Positions 43,985-51,867 of a stretch of DNA of 64,000 nucleotides are shown in pieces. The stretch is from Paludibacteraceae bacterium (lineage in GTDB: Bacteria > Bacteroidota > Bacteroidia > Bacteroidales > Paludibacteraceae), in NCBI GenBank assembly GCA_024693065.1, contig JAILLP010000013.1, forward strand, positions 1 to 64,000, in the 5' to 3' direction. The first letter of the stretch is position 1, and each line of letters opens with the position of its first letter. A model generated the notes under the pieces. It saw only the letters and a program-made list of their open reading frames with translations. It did no database searches and was not told where the DNA came from. Both the position numbers and the translations under genes were made by a program.

Positions 43985-44067
43985 CACATCCAATCCATCC
44001 AACCAATCTTTTTCGTGTTTTCCCGGCCATATCAGGCAAGGAGAACAGCAATTTTCATCGACCCATT

Positions 44068-44183
44068 GAAGGAATTTACGTTAATTCGTTCAATGCAACT
44101 GAATGAATTTACGTTAATTCGTTCAGTGAGACTGAAGGATTTTACATTAATTCGTTCAATTGGACTGAAGGAATTTACATTTT
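44068..44183. repeat. 33-bp tandem repeat
   Basis: Units starting with GAAGGAATTTACGTTAATTC or close variants lie at 44068, 44101, 44134 and 44167, an exact 33-bp period; the fourth is partial and runs into the palindrome. They lie just after sbcC and show no coding sense. Confidence 0.85.
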
Positions 44184-44398: not shown

Positions 44399-44426
44399 AT
44401 CGTTGTCGTTTAATAATCCTTTGTTA

Positions 44427-44434
44427 CAAAAATA
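44427..44434 (-). promoter_or_regulatory. -7 element of the 62-residue gene
   Basis: TATTTTTG on the minus strand, about 29 nt before the ATG at 44398. Confidence 0.5.
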
Positions 44435-44542
44435 CGAAATCACCCTGAAATTAGCCATAACCCTCCTTGTCTTTTATTCAAATTCATTGGACTATGACCA
44501 ATTTTCCGTCCACCACCACTAAAAATTATGCAATTCTTTTAT

Positions 44543-44550
44543 TAAATTTG
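44543..44550 (+). promoter_or_regulatory. -7 element upstream of the RNA leader and type ISP gene
   Basis: TAAATTTG fits the Bacteroidota consensus. Transcription from it would begin near 44557 and leave a ~425-nt leader before the ATG at 44982. Confidence 0.55.
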
Positions 44551-44644
44551 CAAGGCATCATGCACCCTTCAAAAAGGGGAACATGGTTGTGACATAGTAA
44601 AATTCAATTAATAGCGTCGCTATTTATTCTGGAAACGCTTCAAA

Positions 44645-44798
44645 GCTTGGCCGCATAGAAGATTTGAGAACAGAATGATAAACAGCAACGCCCGCGGTTT
44701 GCGTGGGTGGTGTTTTATCTGTTCTCATGGGTCTGGCCAAGCACCCGAAGCGTAGGTAAGCATTTGCCCACGCTTCGTGTGTTTAGACAGACCCTTTT
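44645..44798 (+). ncRNA. Structured leader RNA ending in an intrinsic terminator
   Basis: Four nested or adjacent helices can be drawn. P1: GCTTGGCC (44645-44652) with GGCCAAGC (44735-44742). Inside it, P2: GAGAACAGA (44666-44674) with TCTGTTCTC (44718-44726), capped by further pairing of CCCGC with GCGTGGG. P3: CGAAGCGT (44746-44753) with ACGCTTCG (44770-44777). P4: GGGTCTG (44729-44735) with CAGACCC (44788-44794) followed by TTTT, an intrinsic terminator enclosing P3. P1 and P4 share one base, so they stack or compete. No known riboswitch or RNA family was recognised. It lies between a promoter and a restriction gene on the same strand. Confidence 0.6.
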
Positions 44799-44947
44799 CG
44801 TTTGCACGTAATAGTCGTACGCTCTAACCTACACCAGGGGAAGGGCAAAAACAGCAATTGAATCTGGTTCTATTTTTCTCCGTAAAAACTATTTTACGGC
44901 AGTGTGGGGATGGTGTGTCTTCACGTCAATGCCAGTGGTATGGATGG

Positions 44948-44981
44948 AATGCTCTTCTTCCTGATGCAAAAGAGCATTTTT
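44948..44981 (+). promoter_or_regulatory. Terminator-like hairpin abutting the type ISP start codon
   Basis: AATGCTCTT (44948-44956) pairs with AAGAGCATT (44970-44978) around a 13-nt loop, and the T run 44977-44981 ends at the ATG at 44982. It could stop transcription or hide the ribosome landing site. A further A/T-rich hairpin CCGTAAAA / TTTTACGG lies just upstream (about 44880-44900). Confidence 0.55.
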
Positions 44982-47900
44982 ATGAGCATTTATGACATCC
45001 TCGCAAAATTCAGACAGGAGACTGTCACTGAGCGCCAAAAAGGCGATGTTTTTGAAAAACTAATGCAGCGTTGGCTGCTATCTGATCCTTCTTATTCCAA
45101 TTTGTTTACAAAAGTTTGGATGTGGAAAGATTCTCCATGTACTGAGAGTTTAGGAAAACAAGATTTGGGTATCGATTTAGTTGCATCAGACGACAATGGT
45201 GGTTACTGGGCTATACAATGCAAATGCTATGACGATAAAACAGTTATTCAGAAAGCGGCAGTAGATTCCTTTTTAGCTAATAGTTCACGTCAATTCAATA
45301 TAGACAATCAAACATATTCATTCGCTGGTAGACTTTGGATTTCTACTACAAATAAATTTGGGAAAAATGCAGAGCAATCTTTAGAGAATCAAAACCCGCC
45401 AGTCAACAAAGTAAGTCTAAACACTTTAAATGATTCACAAGTGGATTGGGAGTTGTTGTTGAATGGAAAGAACGGAACCGATGCACTTCGTAAAAAGGCC
45501 ACACCCAGGGATTATCAATTGCCTATCATTGATGCTGCACTAGATCATTTCAGTCAGAACGAGAGAGGAACATTAGTAATGGCATGCGGAACAGGAAAAA
45601 CTCTAACCTCAATGTTTATAGCTCAACAAATGCTTAAAAACAAGGGGTTGGTTTTGTTTTTGGCTCCATCAATAGCATTGGTTGCACAATCTCTCAATAG
45701 TTGGTTCGCAAATTCGGAGAAACCTATCAAAGCAGTTTGTGTATGCTCAGACAGTAGTGCTGGGTCTATTGAGTATAATGAAGAGGAAGACCACATGGTA
45801 GAATCCTTAACAGACTTGCCAATACGTTCATGCACTAATCCTAAGGCAATCATAGATGAAATCGAGAGATATAAGAATCATGATGGTTTACTTATTTGTT
45901 TCTCCACTTACCAGAGTATTGATGTCGTAAAAACAGCGCAAAGCACGTTGATGGAGAAAAGCGGAGGGGAATTTGGAGAATTTGATCTAATCATTTGTGA
46001 CGAGGCTCATAGAACTGCGTCTGTAAAAATAAGCGGGAAAAATGAGACAGATTTCACAAAAGTACATAATGGAAATTATGTCAAAGCCAAGCATAGAATG
46101 TATATGACCGCTACTCCGAAGATATACAACGAAGCAAGTAAAAACAAAGCAGACTTGAACGATGATCTTCTTTTCTCCATGGATAAGGAGGAGTATTTTG
46201 GAAAGCATTTCTATAATCTTGATTTCGGCACAGCTGTAGATAAAGGGCTATTGACTGATTATAAGGTTTTAGTCCTTACCATAGATGAAAAAAATGCCAA
46301 TTCTGAGTTTCTTAATGCTTATAAGAGATATGTGGATCAACATAATCAAGAAACTCCCGATAAAGAACATATACATCATATAACTCCAGAACAGCAAGCG
46401 ATGATTATAGGTTCAGTAAGTGCTATGAGTAAGCAATTGCTGTACGCCAACAAGGATGACTTTGCTGAAGATGAAAATATAGGCAAACCAATGCATACGG
46501 CCATTGCCTTCTGCGATAACGTAAGACGCTATAAAAAAACAAAAGAAGGGGTTTATGTGGCGGAAGAAATATCACAGGCTTTTGAGGATGTTACTGCTGT
46601 TTACAAAAAAGTTTTTGAGGGGGATGAGGATTCAAAAGAATTCTTGGAGAAGCTTGTTGATGTGAAATCCACTATGGTAAGCGGTGATATGCCGACTAAT
46701 GAAAGGAACGAAAACTTGAACATACTTCGTGAATCTTTTGATCCTTATGAGAAGCGCAGTAACATCGTGTGCAATGTTAACTGTCTTAGTGAGGGTGTGG
46801 ATGTCCCTGCTCTGGATGCCGCAATTTTCTTGGCTTCTAAGAAGTCCATGATAACCATTGTCCAATCCGTAGGACGTGTCATGCGAAAATTCGAGGGCAA
46901 GAAGTACGGATATATCATAGTTCCTGTGGTGATTCCTATAGGTGCCGACCCTGTCAAGGAGATGGACAAAAACGAGCGTTACAAGTTAGTGTGGAACATC
47001 TTGAATGCGATGCGCTCTCATGACGAACGTTTGGCGGCAGAACTTAGCAACCACAATTACACTCATGTGAAAATCGTATCGCCTCGTCCTCCAAGAGGAG
47101 GAAATGGAGGAACTGGCGGTGGCAGACCTACTGGAGGCGGAGGAAAAACTGAGGGACCAATCCTCTTCCCTGAAGAGTTAGAGTTCGTTGATAAACTTTA
47201 CGCCCGTATGGTGGATAAGGTAGGTGATCGTCTTTATTGGGATAAGTGGTCTACAAAAGTTGGAGACATCGCCCAAAACTTTATCGCCAGACTTAATGAG
47301 TTGGTGGAGAACGACAAATATGTTAAAGAGGTTGATCATTTTGTATCTGACTTACAAAAAAACATCAACCCTTCAATTGACAGAGAACAAGCCATCACGT
47401 TCCTTGCCCAGCAATTGATTACGAAACCAGTGTTCGATGCGTTATTCCCAGATTATCAATTCGCTAAGAACAATACAGTCAGCAAGAGTATCCAAAGTGT
47501 CTTGGATGTGATTCAAGACGAAGCCTTCGTATCGGATAGGAATGTGTTGGAATCTTTCTACAACAATGTTTCCCAAGTTTGTGGAACATTACGAACTATC
47601 GATGAGAAGCAAGATACAATTAAAACGTTGTATGAGAAGTTCTTTAAGAAAGCCTTTCCTCGGATTGTAGAACAATTGGGAATAATATATACGCCCGTCG
47701 ATTGTGTCAACTTTATCATCAAGAGCGTAGATGATGTTTTGAAAAAAGAATTCAAAGTGTCACTAAAAGACAGAGGGGTGAATATTCTTGATCCATTTAC
47801 TGGAACAGGTACATTTATCACCCAAACATTGAACTATCTGAAAAATCATGGCATAACTGACGAAGATTTAAGATATAAGTACCTCAACGAGATACACTGT

Positions 47901-50660
47901 AACGAAATCGTCCTGCTCTCTTATTACATCGCCGATGTGAATATTGAAAGCGTATACAATGACATTGTTTCTGAAAAAGGGTATCTTCCGTACAACAACA
48001 TTTGCTTGACTGACACATTCCAATTAACTGAAAGTAAACAATATAAATTCAAAGGTGAAGGTTATTATTTCATCGAGAACACGAAACAAATAGAACAACA
48101 AAAAAAGACTCCGATTAAGGTTATCATAGCCAATCCTCCATATTCAATAGGACAAAAATCTGCCGATGATATGGCTGCGAACTTACATTACGAGGATTTG
48201 GAGAGTAGGATTGAGCAAACCTATGCCAAGAGATCCTCAGCTAATCTCCAAAAGTCCATCTATGATAGTTACATCAAAGCTTTCAGATGGGCTTCTGACC
48301 GTATTCATGAGAATGGAGAAACGGGAGGTGTTGTGGCATTCATAAGTAATGGTTCTTGGCTAGATGGTAATGCATTGGATGGTTTTAGAAAGTGTATCGA
48401 GGAAGAGTTCAGCGATATATATGTGTTCAATCTTCGAGGCAATCAGAGAACAAGCGGCGAATTGAGTCGTAAAGAGGGAGGTAAAATATTCGGAAGCGGA
48501 AGTAGGACTCCTGTTTCCATTACCATTCTTGTCGATAACCCACATAAGTCTCCAGAAAGATTTGCTGTTTGGAAGAAGCTTAAAGATGCAGAGATAGAAT
48601 TCAAACAATGTATTTTAACGGATGAAGAGAAAAAGTTGATGAAAGCTGATATCCATTATCTTGATATTGGCGATTATCTGACGCAACAACAGAAACTTGA
48701 TAAAATCAAGAAGATAGGATCCGTTCTATCAAAAGACTTTGGAAAAGGAAGAATCTCTCCAAACGAACATGGAGATTGGATTTCCATGAGAAATGATGCG
48801 TTCAAAGAACTAATTTCGATTAATCCAGAGAAGAACTTTGACGAAAAGTCGAATGCATTCTTTACAATGGAAGCCGTCGGTGTAGCTACAGGAAGAGATC
48901 CATACGTTTGCAAATTCTCAAAAAAAGCATTAAAACAGGGAATAGACAAATTCATTGCTTTCTATGATAATCAGAGGAAGAATTATGCTTTAAAATCAAA
49001 AACCAATCCAACACTTAAAGTTGAAGATTTAATTGATACCGACAAGACTCAGATATCCTGGACTGTAAATATGAAGAAGTATTGTGAAAAGAACATAGAA
49101 CTGTCTTATAGCGATACTGATTTTATTGAAGGATCATATCGTCCTTTCCAAAAAATGAGCCTATGTTACAATCAGTATATGATAGAACGTCCAGGTCAAT
49201 GGAGAAAATTGTTTCCTACAAACGAGCATGGCAATTTTGTTATTGGAATAAGTTGCATTGGATCATCCAAACAACTCACATCGATAGTATCAAATAACAT
49301 TGTTGATTACCACTATTGTGGTGACACACACTGTTTCCCTCTTTATTGGTATGAGACCAAAGAGGAATATAACAAACGTACTAAGAAGAAGGGAAATCCA
49401 GGAATGAAATCATTATTTGATGATGACGATATGTATGATTATAAAAGAATAGGCTTCGATGAGTATGGCTATCTTCGTCATGATGGAATCTCTGATTATA
49501 TTCTCAAAGAATTCAGAACTCGTTACGGTTTAAGTGCTAAATCTACGGACATTACCAAGGAAGATATATTCTACTATGTGTATGGACTTCTTCATAGTGA
49601 GGATTATAGGACAACTTTTGAAGCTGATTTGAAGAAAATGTTGCCAAGGATTCCGATTGTCGAAAGTGCAAAAGAGTTCAAAGCATTTATGGAAGCAGGA
49701 CGAAAACTAGCTGAATTACATCTGAATTATGAGGAGGTAGAACCATACCCAGGCGTAACCGGCAATGAGACCGGCACGAAACAGGATGAGTACGCCTACT
49801 ACACCGTGGAGAAGATGCGTTTCCCTACTGGAATGAAGGCCAAAGACAAGCCAAACACCATCCTCTACAACGGACATATCGTGGTGAAGAACATACCACA
49901 GGTGGCCTACGACTACGTGGTGAACGGCAAGTCAGCCATCGAATGGATTATGGAGCGGTATCAGGTCACCATAGACAAAGAGAGCCTTATCAAGAACGAC
50001 CCGAACGACTGGAGCCGAGAGCACGAAAAGCCTCGCTACATACTCGACCTACTGCTGAGCGTCATCAACGTGAGCGTGCAGACGGTGGCAATCGTGAAGA
50101 GCCTGCCAGCCCTCCATCTGGACGCGGCACAGCGCACCGCCGCCCAACAAGCAGAAGAAAGAGTAGCTAAGCCTGCTATAGAAATCATGGAAGAGGTGGA
50201 AGAAGAAGCGAAGTTTGTCCAATTCCTGCCATACTACAATCTGAAGGCAGCCTGCGGTGCATTCGAGTCAAACGAACTGCCTACACAAACAGGCTGGATA
50301 GACATCTCAGCAAGCGGAGTCCATCCGAAGGGAGACAAGAATTATTTCGTCTGCCAAGCCAAAGGCAACTCCATGCAACCAAGAATCGAGGATGGCGATT
50401 GGGTCATCTGCCGTTTCTATACACCAGACAACGGAGGTAGTCGTAACGGTAAGATGGTGATTGCGCAAATCAGCGAATATGACGGCGACTATGATGGCAA
50501 ATACACCCTCAAGGAGTATCACAGCGAGAAGAACGCTGACGGTAGCCGCAAATCCATCACCCTCCGTCCGCTCAACAAAGCCTACTCCCCTATCGAACTG
50601 CACGAAGAGGATGATGTGAAGGTGGTGGCTGTGGTAGAGGCGGTAATGAGAGGAGACTAA
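44982..50660 (+). CDS. Type ISP restriction-modification enzyme with C-terminal S24 (LexA/UmuD-like) peptidase domain
   Basis: 1892 residues from the ATG at 44982 (an in-frame ATG at 44904 lies within the leader). Domains in order: Mrr-type PD-(D/E)xK nuclease (GIDL near 62, QCK near 80); SF2 helicase with MACGTGKT (~203), CDEAH (~337) and SVGRVMRKF; coupling region; N6-adenine methylase with LDPFTGTGTF (~936) and NPPY (~1049); recognition domain to about 1750. This is the LlaGI/LlaBIII layout: one chain methylates one strand and, on unmodified DNA, translocates and cuts. The last ~140 residues are extra: KAACGAF, then GNSMQPRIEDGDWV with Ser1797 and a Lys about 47 residues later in YTLKEY, matching S24 peptidases with a UmuD-like Cys-Gly site. 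Composition shifts to higher GC from ~49.74 kb. Confidence 0.92.
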   Translation: MSIYDILAKFRQETVTERQKGDVFEKLMQRWLLSDPSYSNLFTKVWMWKDSPCTESLGKQDLGIDLVASDDNGGYWAIQCKCYDDKTVIQKAAVDSFLANSSRQFNIDNQTYSFAGRLWISTTNKFGKNAEQSLENQNPPVNKVSLNTLNDSQVDWELLLNGKNGTDALRKKATPRDYQLPIIDAALDHFSQNERGTLVMACGTGKTLTSMFIAQQMLKNKGLVLFLAPSIALVAQSLNSWFANSEKPIKAVCVCSDSSAGSIEYNEEEDHMVESLTDLPIRSCTNPKAIIDEIERYKNHDGLLICFSTYQSIDVVKTAQSTLMEKSGGEFGEFDLIICDEAHRTASVKISGKNETDFTKVHNGNYVKAKHRMYMTATPKIYNEASKNKADLNDDLLFSMDKEEYFGKHFYNLDFGTAVDKGLLTDYKVLVLTIDEKNANSEFLNAYKRYVDQHNQETPDKEHIHHITPEQQAMIIGSVSAMSKQLLYANKDDFAEDENIGKPMHTAIAFCDNVRRYKKTKEGVYVAEEISQAFEDVTAVYKKVFEGDEDSKEFLEKLVDVKSTMVSGDMPTNERNENLNILRESFDPYEKRSNIVCNVNCLSEGVDVPALDAAIFLASKKSMITIVQSVGRVMRKFEGKKYGYIIVPVVIPIGADPVKEMDKNERYKLVWNILNAMRSHDERLAAELSNHNYTHVKIVSPRPPRGGNGGTGGGRPTGGGGKTEGPILFPEELEFVDKLYARMVDKVGDRLYWDKWSTKVGDIAQNFIARLNELVENDKYVKEVDHFVSDLQKNINPSIDREQAITFLAQQLITKPVFDALFPDYQFAKNNTVSKSIQSVLDVIQDEAFVSDRNVLESFYNNVSQVCGTLRTIDEKQDTIKTLYEKFFKKAFPRIVEQLGIIYTPVDCVNFIIKSVDDVLKKEFKVSLKDRGVNILDPFTGTGTFITQTLNYLKNHGITDEDLRYKYLNEIHCNEIVLLSYYIADVNIESVYNDIVSEKGYLPYNNICLTDTFQLTESKQYKFKGEGYYFIENTKQIEQQKKTPIKVIIANPPYSIGQKSADDMAANLHYEDLESRIEQTYAKRSSANLQKSIYDSYIKAFRWASDRIHENGETGGVVAFISNGSWLDGNALDGFRKCIEEEFSDIYVFNLRGNQRTSGELSRKEGGKIFGSGSRTPVSITILVDNPHKSPERFAVWKKLKDAEIEFKQCILTDEEKKLMKADIHYLDIGDYLTQQQKLDKIKKIGSVLSKDFGKGRISPNEHGDWISMRNDAFKELISINPEKNFDEKSNAFFTMEAVGVATGRDPYVCKFSKKALKQGIDKFIAFYDNQRKNYALKSKTNPTLKVEDLIDTDKTQISWTVNMKKYCEKNIELSYSDTDFIEGSYRPFQKMSLCYNQYMIERPGQWRKLFPTNEHGNFVIGISCIGSSKQLTSIVSNNIVDYHYCGDTHCFPLYWYETKEEYNKRTKKKGNPGMKSLFDDDDMYDYKRIGFDEYGYLRHDGISDYILKEFRTRYGLSAKSTDITKEDIFYYVYGLLHSEDYRTTFEADLKKMLPRIPIVESAKEFKAFMEAGRKLAELHLNYEEVEPYPGVTGNETGTKQDEYAYYTVEKMRFPTGMKAKDKPNTILYNGHIVVKNIPQVAYDYVVNGKSAIEWIMERYQVTIDKESLIKNDPNDWSREHEKPRYILDLLLSVINVSVQTVAIVKSLPALHLDAAQRTAAQQAEERVAKPAIEIMEEVEEEAKFVQFLPYYNLKAACGAFESNELPTQTGWIDISASGVHPKGDKNYFVCQAKGNSMQPRIEDGDWVICRFYTPDNGGSRNGKMVIAQISEYDGDYDGKYTLKEYHSEKNADGSRKSITLRPLNKAYSPIELHEEDDVKVVAVVEAVMRGD

Positions 50661-50709: not shown

Positions 50710-51867
50710 CTAAAACAACTCCCCGTCCCATAAGGCTTTCAGGAAATCGGTGGCATATAAAACGCTGATGCCGTCTTCTGTCGCACGACTGATTTTATCA
50801 AGTCCCACGACAATTAGCTTCGTGTCGGGATATTCGTCCCGAAAACTTCGCAACCCCTTTAGATGTCTGTTCTGTATTTCCTCGGACGATTTAATCTCTA
50901 TGGCAAACAATATATCTGATGAGTATTCATCTGAAACGACAACATCCACCTCAATGCCCGATGCGGTGCGCCAATAGCTGAGTACGACATGTTTTTGCCT
51001 ATAATCAACGTATGCCACAAGTTCCTGAACGATAAAGTGTTCGAACGCATGACCGAAGTCAGCGGAACCAGGAAGGAGGTTCACCCTGTGCGTGAGATAA
51101 TTGACGATACCCACATCGAAATAATAGAACTTGGGAGCCTTTATGACTCTACGCTGCCGAACCTTGGTATACGCAGGGAGCATGAATCCGACAAGCGTCT
51201 CCTCCAATATCGAAAAATATTCCTTGACCGTCACAGCGCTCACTCCGCAGTCTGACGCAATGTTGTTATAATTCACCATCTCACCATCGGACAAGGCGGC
51301 AACCTCGAGAAAACGGGTGAATGAGGACAAATTGCGGCTCAATGCCTCGGCCATGATCTCCTGTTGCAGGTAATCGCCAACGTATGCCTGTAACCTCTTG
51401 GTGGCATTCTCCGTCAGATAATGGCGGGGAAGCATACCGTTATTGCAGGCCTTGATCAGATTGAAATCAGGGATTTCTGCGCTAACCAATGGCAAGAGCC
51501 TGCATCGCAACGCCCTGCCACCCAGCAGATTTGTTCCGTAACGCTTGAGTTTCCTTGCGCTGGAACCACTGAGAATGAAATGGATATCCTTCCTGACGAT
51601 AAGCCACTGCACCTCATTGAGTAAATCCGGGAGTTTCTGCACCTCGTCTATGATAACAATGTCGCCGGGCTGTTTGCTTTGCAGGTCTTCCCGCAAAAGG
51701 GAAGGATTACGCCGCAACCGCTCAAAAGTGTCGAGACGCAGCAAATCGATGTACGTCGCATCAGGGAAAAGATTGACAAGCAAAGTACTTTTCCCTGTTT
51801 GTCTAGCACCCCATAGGAACACGCTGTCGGTTTGAACATCCTCTATTTTCAGAATCCTTTCTATCAT
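50710..51867 (-). CDS. AAA ATPase with DUF4143 domain
   Basis: 385 residues. Walker A GARQTGKST (about 20-28) and Walker B IVIIDEVQKLP, sensor ILSGSSARKL, then the C-terminal DUF4143 domain, which has a restriction-like fold (EVDVVVSDEY, FAIEIKSSE). Members are widespread in Bacteroidota with unclear function; the C-terminal E...IEIKS resembles a nuclease core. It converges on the type ISP gene and is divergent from the HerA gene. Confidence 0.9.
   Translation of the reverse strand: MIERILKIEDVQTDSVFLWGARQTGKSTLLVNLFPDATYIDLLRLDTFERLRRNPSLLREDLQSKQPGDIVIIDEVQKLPDLLNEVQWLIVRKDIHFILSGSSARKLKRYGTNLLGGRALRCRLLPLVSAEIPDFNLIKACNNGMLPRHYLTENATKRLQAYVGDYLQQEIMAEALSRNLSSFTRFLEVAALSDGEMVNYNNIASDCGVSAVTVKEYFSILEETLVGFMLPAYTKVRQRRVIKAPKFYYFDVGIVNYLTHRVNLLPGSADFGHAFEHFIVQELVAYVDYRQKHVVLSYWRTASGIEVDVVVSDEYSSDILFAIEIKSSEEIQNRHLKGLRSFRDEYPDTKLIVVGLDKISRATEDGISVLYATDFLKALWDGELF

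Follow-up and report, generated by a model that had tools for sequence, protein, structure and literature searches.

A family of leader RNAs with competing helices ahead of restriction-modification and other accessory genes of Bacteroidota

As regulators of gene expression, transcription-attenuating riboswitches and attenuator leaders share a common architecture: a promoter, a structured RNA in which an antiterminator competes with a terminator, a T-run, and the gene. The timing and limiting of restriction-modification (R-M) enzymes is a long-standing question, and the answers so far are mostly protein regulators; R-M operons can be controlled by C proteins or by antisense RNA. The leader RNA described here has the same layout as the attenuating riboswitches, and almost invariant loop letters, but differs from them in that no known aptamer class is matched, in its chain of pairings (A:B / B:C / C:E' / E:F), and in its genes, which belong to R-M systems or encode secreted proteins. 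With control by C proteins or antisense RNA it would share an action on R-M gene expression, and it differs in being a large structured leader common to R-M systems of types I/II-like, IIG, III and ISP. The DUF805 and DUF805b RNAs (RF03081, RF02914; clan CL00115) are likewise of cis-regulatory type, and matches to them lie inside leaders of the present family; they are however 35 and 68 nt long and have no match in 44400-45050 of our sequence at E up to 5. An RNA tied to a phage-defence gene is known in the AbiF-associated RNA (PMC12373285), which, going by its description, belongs to another gene and another organism. No title or abstract opening was found that describes the present leader, the literature covered extending also to term-matched passages of PMC8040213, PMC9723704 and PMC2864571, though it may have been described before.

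The DNA analysed (the window) is a stretch of 64,000 nucleotides from a Paludibacteraceae bacterium (contig JAILLP010000013.1, positions 1 to 64,000), in which positions 44557 to about 44827 are one copy of a large cis-acting leader RNA family of Bacteroidota. A preliminary description had drawn the leader at 44557-44981, of which the RNA fills the part up to about 44827; the remainder, 44828-44981, is additional spacer, with a hairpin (AATGCTCTT/AAGAGCATT, 44948-44978, from the fold) that ends 3 nt before the start codon (ATG, 44982) and has similar counterparts, by eye, in other ISP leaders. The promoter that it had placed at 44543 is borne out: the sequence at 44543-44550 (plus strand) is TAAATTTG and fits TANNTTTG, the consensus of the Bacteroidota -7 box, which is enriched before the copies. 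A sigma-70 promoter scan of the window copy made no call on the plus strand. A tandem repeat (44067-44178, period 33, 3.4 copies) lies just upstream of the RNA locus.

Computed folding agrees with the structured RNA of the preliminary description: 44557-44800 has a minimum free energy (MFE) of -92 kcal/mol (z -5.6, matched by none of 200 shuffles), the longer stretch 44557-44985 has a z of -5.2 (0 of 100 shuffles equal), the hairpins at 44666-44726 and 44729-44794 are both present, and homologues covary. On the plus strand, the copy begins with a 5' hairpin seen in the fold (44557-44587) at the likely transcript start, followed by strand A (AGCGTCGCTATTTATTCTG, 44613-44631), the partner of strand B in the early fold according to covariation and prefix folds, and by strand D (44636-44652; covariation), the 5' side of helix P2 (D:E). 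The P3 hairpin (44666-44726; fold and covariation) joins its arms 44666-44674 and 44718-44726 and has an inner stem of 44689-44696 with 44702-44709; both strand B (44671-44690) and strand C (44712-44721) lie inside it. Strand E (44735-44752; covariation) is the 3' side of P2, and its 3' end doubles as the 5' arm of the terminator stem E:F (GAAGCG..CGCTTC, 44747-44777; fold and covariation), within which strand E' (GGTAAG, 44755-44760; covariation) offers strand C an alternative partner. An outer extension of the terminator hairpin (GGGTCTG/CAGACCC) with its TTTT tail spans 44729-44798, as judged from sequence and fold, and is weak in this copy. A possible 3' partner of strand A (AATAG..ACGC, 44810-44824), giving a long-range helix P1, is suggested by the fold and by complementarity over the copies; in many of them a strand lying between the terminator and the start codon is likewise complementary to strand A, as the same complementarity test shows. 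The terminator-like last helix of the preliminary description is thus partly upheld: the nested hairpin 44729-44794 is followed by TTTT at 44795-44798, but it is weak, has four T, and is uncalled by a terminator scan, whose sole plus-strand call is the inner P3 hairpin (44689-44709).

The family extends far beyond the window. By blastn, matches were found in five genomes, its own included, among 61 relatives, and in 16 of 200 family genomes, where the weakest matches are short; most of the strong ones lie ahead of an ISP gene, three copies (in genomes G007, G127 and G144) precede other DNA methyltransferase genes, and one (G162) precedes the gene of an LRR protein; core and gene start are 21-47 nt apart in these four. 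The covariance model R1, built from 12 sequences, has matches in 193 of 358 genomes from the host's own family (E<=0.01; at most eight candidates scored per genome). A second model (R2) was made of 87 copies, from whose alignment (A5) eight reverse-strand matches present in A4 had been removed; it matches 100 of 295 genomes of the order (E<=0.001) and 26 of 296 genomes of a phylum sample (E<=1e-4), 24 of them outside the order and 22 of these in the same class. All these E-values are rough because calibration was short. In five genomes (G052, G426, G435, G529 and G627) all ten scored candidates matched, several near contig ends, and the copy number there may be higher.

Three sets of copies were compared. 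The first comprises 92 copies, or 86 after a 90% identity filter. The second consists of 80 named loci, from at least 117 stretches, that contain the exact 19-nt pattern TAGCGTTTGCTATTTRTTC of strand A, a choice that avoids choosing by gene; 72 of the 80 have a model match, and with one locus omitted that is cut by the locus end (L125) there are 73 matches in 71 loci, 71 with an open reading frame (ORF) of at least 50 aa. Two of the 73 matches owe their detection to the model rather than to the motif; they are second copies in L154 and L158, neither of them ahead of an R-M gene. A further set, for covariation, joins 59 of the 80 named loci to 39 found when the order and the phylum sample were searched, leaving out the eight loci with no match, L125 and 12 presumed training loci; its 100 matches, minus three near-duplicates of training copies, came to 95 after the 90% filter. 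One Balneolaceae locus (L122) has the 19-nt motif without a model match, which was taken as chance. Among viral contigs there was one exact match to the 19-nt motif and none to a second pattern.

A common layout unites the copies: a promoter box, an RNA of about 180 nt, a hairpin with a T-run, and a gene start about 40 nt on. In the 105 nt upstream of strand A, 53 of 91 copies carry the box TANNTTTG, where mononucleotide shuffles predict 5.5; for the second set the figures are 42 of 71 and 3.2. Runs of five or more T near the 3' end are found in 71 of 92 copies (19.1 expected) and in 54 of 73 of the second set (11.6 expected); most family copies thus have a U-tract of T5, and the window copy T4 only. 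The median distance to the gene start is 43 nt in one set and 41 nt in the other, with 55 of 80 and 48 of 58 copies at 0-80 nt, figures that are approximate because ORFs of at least 120 aa with script-chosen starts were used. Covarying structure that precedes a gene start on the coding strand is what defines a cis-acting leader, and the preliminary description, which had allowed for either a leader or a free-standing RNA, is narrowed accordingly: since the gene start is usually within 80 nt, a free-standing RNA is less likely for most copies. In six loci outside the order (L264, L265, L267, L269, L271 and L274) a small hairpin with a GGGAC/GGGTTT-like loop is seen by eye directly ahead of the ATG.

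The structure was examined by covariation. In the 12-sequence alignment 91.6% of cells pair (83.6% when shuffled, 34-42% when slid) and 13 pairs have changed on both sides. An early consensus with P4 as a single 3' helix was dropped in favour of a set of competing helices after a structure-free covariation scan of the 86 copies, which gave high ranks to pairs of P2 (D:E), inner P3, A:B, B:C, C:E' and E:F, and connected a chain of columns (81-132-171-211) via three competing pairings; many non-pair column couples rank high too, as expected from relatedness. With helix columns picked beforehand on the same 86 copies, covariation was 0.59 in P2a (0.23 shuffled), 0.57 in P2b (0.29), 0.44 in P3c (0.34), 0.22 in B:C (0.19), 0.29 in the lower and 0.37 in the upper part of A:B (0.19 and 0.23), 0.44 in C:E' (0.25), and 0.43 in E:F (0.33), so that all eight tested helices, competing ones included, beat the shuffles (0 of 200; B:C, 1 of 200). 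The result repeats in the 95 further copies with the columns fixed (0 of 200 shuffles), the lower part of A:B being weakest (8 of 200); strand A varies less there because many of these copies were chosen by an exact motif within it. Shuffles ignore relatedness and slid controls preserve it, and the slid controls gave lower pairing and lower covariation for every helix in both sets.

Several of these pairings are mutually exclusive, yet all are conserved: A:B competes with B:C, B:C with C:E', and both C:E' and D:E with E:F. Conserved pairings that cannot coexist are the main evidence for a switch, and, as far as conservation tells, the exclusive terminator and antiterminator helices of a transcription attenuator are both maintained. 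Compensatory changes, which the preliminary description had named as its test, are abundant in homologues; its proposal of alternative folds survives in altered form, as competing helices do covary but extend far past the one base at which P1 and P4 had been thought to meet. Within the internal loop of P2, two facing letters hardly vary among 181 copies, A being kept in 98.9% and C in 97.8%.

Computed folds indicate an order of events. When the transcript is folded only as far as strand B, the MFE structure contains half or more of the A:B pairs in 81 of the 86 copies, and in full-length MFE structures of the same copies the mean share of pairs held is 82% for P3, 68% for P2a, 40% for E:F, 2% for A:B and 1% for C:E'. 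When the two states are enforced, they differ on average by 5.1 kcal/mol (sd 10.3; pseudoknots unscored), state I being lower in 33 of 86. A complement of strand A lies within 110 nt past the core in 41 of 82 R-M leaders, against 4.1 expected from mononucleotide shuffles, and in 19 of 72 other leaders, against 3.6; R-M labels in the first set were assigned from motif and by eye.

Comparison with known RNAs yielded no family. Rfam 15 finds only a tRNA (33633) in the whole window and leaves the RNA stretch unassigned; at E up to 5 it returns one miRNA match in 44400-45050, far under the cut-off, and no Rfam family overlaps the RNA core in 18 and 20 further loci (38 in total). The earlier statement that no known riboswitch class is recognisable therefore holds for the window and these 38 loci, and the covariance search that had been proposed, with Rfam and with models of homologues, gave no Rfam family and many matches to our own models among relatives. 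A housekeeping RNA, which would have spoken against the preliminary description, is found neither at the window nor at the 38 other loci: 6S RNA, tmRNA, RNase P and SRP have no Rfam or ARAGORN match at the RNA locus, and 165 of 358 family genomes have no match to the model (at most eight candidates scored per genome). DUF805b was rejected as the same element, the matches to RF02914/RF03081 lying 3' of the core and overlapping no core in four loci (L039, L050, L237 and L245). There, RF02914 follows the 3' end of the switch RNA and precedes the next gene (L039 1344-1378, L050 1779-1813, L237 1455-1490, L245 1605-1641), and the DUF805b RNA and the switch RNA may form one leader. A phage or plasmid element was likewise rejected, as blastn of the window copy finds no phage or plasmid match. 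A minus-strand match of R1 at 44725-44895 (36.9 bits) is an artefact of the palindrome, being the window copy read in reverse complement.

The genes that follow the RNA often belong to one functional class. In the motif-chosen second set, 39 of 71 first ORFs match R-M or DNA-methyltransferase Pfam families at E<=1e-5 (35 above Pfam's cut-off and four, all MmeI_Mtase, just under it): EcoRI_methylase, MethyltransfD12, DNA_methylase (C5), N6_N4_Mtase, N6_Mtase/Eco57I, MmeI domains, TypeIII_RM_meth and HSDR_N_2. Five R-M homologues, one of them weak (L138, 1e-6), are added by blastp, bringing the count to 44 of 71. In a like-for-like blastp comparison with the other 38 R-M proteins, homologues were found for 43 of the 71 first ORFs and for a single one of 188 upstream ORFs of at least 120 aa, which itself sits behind another RNA copy (Fisher p 7e-29, with loci that are not independent since several genes are related). 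The first genes that do not belong to R-M systems number 27 to 32 of the 71. Secreted and surface proteins form the second main class, and these genes include those of fimbrillin-like and other secreted proteins and of HTH, WYL, radical SAM/SPASM, GtrA, PAP2 and HAD proteins. A small HTH-like ORF comes right after the RNA in L193, L152, L119 and L241, with Pfam HTH_3 in L193 and by eye in the rest.

The window's own genome has five copies, four of them ahead of R-M operons: the ISP gene, two pairs of type III-like mod and res genes, and a gene of 382 aa with a 1,325-aa Eco57I/ResIII protein behind it; the fifth lies ahead of a lipoprotein-like gene with no Pfam match. Of seven N6_Mtase or N6_N4_Mtase genes in this genome three have the leader (for C36, one of the other four, the search covered only about 150 nt upstream of the frame). 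Outside the order, none of 11 loci has a methyltransferase motif in the first ORF; nine first ORFs are secreted or lipoprotein-like by eye, one locus has no ORF >46 aa, and several gene starts are >100 nt away. The RNA is therefore not dedicated to R-M genes. The association with type ISP genes expected in the preliminary description is real at eight related loci, but the RNA also stands before other R-M types and non-R-M genes, and is thus specific neither to type ISP nor to restriction. Given such mixed downstream genes in and outside the order, it is a general accessory-gene leader of Bacteroidota, heavily used by R-M systems in gut Bacteroidales.

The window's gene itself is a type ISP R-M gene (44982-50660, plus strand, start codon from homologues), whose 1,918-aa open frame matches the Pfam families Type_ISP_C, ISP_coupler, Mrr_cat_2, ResIII, N6_Mtase and Peptidase_S24. 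The last, LexA/CI-like, occupies residues 1783-1911 at the C-terminal end, and is also present in the ISP homologue of G019 (L008 7888-13545); this fusion is unusual and could link a self-cleavage signal to the enzyme. Immediately after the R-M gene, on the minus strand, lies an AAA_14/DUF4143 protein gene (50710-51867) with a PADLOC match to PDC-S01. The eight loci with RNA and type ISP gene (G000, G001, G011, G019, G100, G116, G130 and G140) were recognised by N-terminal similarity, and the type ISP identity of the G000 and G019 genes is backed by Pfam. After the outer hairpin, one of these eight copies has T5, three have TTTT, two TTT and two no run; with the T-run so reduced, termination in the ISP branch may be weak or replaced by translational control. 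Since computed energies place the terminator state of the window copy 24 kcal/mol lower (pseudoknots unscored), this copy may be locked rather than switching.

Taken together, we read the RNA as a cis-acting leader family whose likely mechanism is a strand-exchange transcription attenuator, at a probability of about 0.7. Such a switch is the most economical reading, its steps of termination, read-through and response being deduced from sequence. Strand A would pair first with the emerging strand B. Were A:B kept, C would be free for E' and D would pair with E, so that the 5' arm of the terminator would be occupied and RNA polymerase would read through; were C to displace A, forming the P3 hairpin, the terminator stem E:F could form and transcription would stop, perhaps leaving the displaced A to pair with a strand close to the start codon. 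The balance would be set by some signal, or by transcription kinetics alone.

Three refinements of the attenuator reading concern what sets that balance. A small molecule in a pocket around the conserved P2 internal loop may pick the fold, as in a riboswitch: the two near-invariant facing letters, the interleaved helices joined to a terminator platform, and the many copies ahead of unrelated genes suit this tentative idea, against which stand the lack of a ligand candidate and genes without a common pathway (R-M, fimbrillin-like, LRR, lipoproteins, HTH). The fold might be set in trans, by a protein or small RNA that binds the leader, which is possible if rather doubtful; hairpin P3c and strand A are conserved, and the diversity of accessory genes is compatible with a global regulator. 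It is somewhat unlikely that the switch is signal-free, a bistable or kinetic device giving cell-to-cell variation of costly accessory genes. A:B does form early and P3 late in computed folds, and R-M and surface genes are, as general knowledge has it, classical variable genes, but pure strand exchange would have no need of near-invariant letters in the P2 loop.

The remaining explanations dispense with switching. The terminator-like 3' end, and the single fold favoured by full-length MFE structures, might be those of a constitutive terminator or insulator with strong hairpins; covariation of the competing helices in two sets of copies, and the position of the RNA between promoter box and gene, make this improbable. 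Long inverted repeats, several copies per genome, and copies at least 160 nt from the next ORF (L050-L052, for example, and 4 of 11 outside the order) could even indicate a DNA-level element (a palindrome, MITE or recombination site) or a free-standing small RNA. We give this very little credence, as the competing helices covary and most gene starts lie close behind the RNA in both sets, and as the window copy has no blastn match in phage or plasmid records.

If the attenuator reading is right, the earlier suggestion that the leader decides whether the restriction enzyme is made would fit, with the reservation that the terminator of the window copy is weak; because R-M operons, more than other genes, have adopted the family in gut Bacteroidales, the leader probably sets how often, or in what condition, the enzyme is produced there. 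One leader across several R-M types in a major gut lineage would give these systems a common control point, open the trigger of R-M expression to direct test, and add a large RNA family absent from Rfam 15. That R-M and surface genes both use it suggests, speculatively, that phage defence may be controlled together with phage receptors. More tentatively still in its scope, the family may be a new riboswitch-like class of Bacteroidota in which a signal sets R-M systems of many types and surface proteins as one regulon, a possibility that we hold doubtful; if true, a dial sensed by RNA would set DNA self-marking and phage defence across the whole cell.
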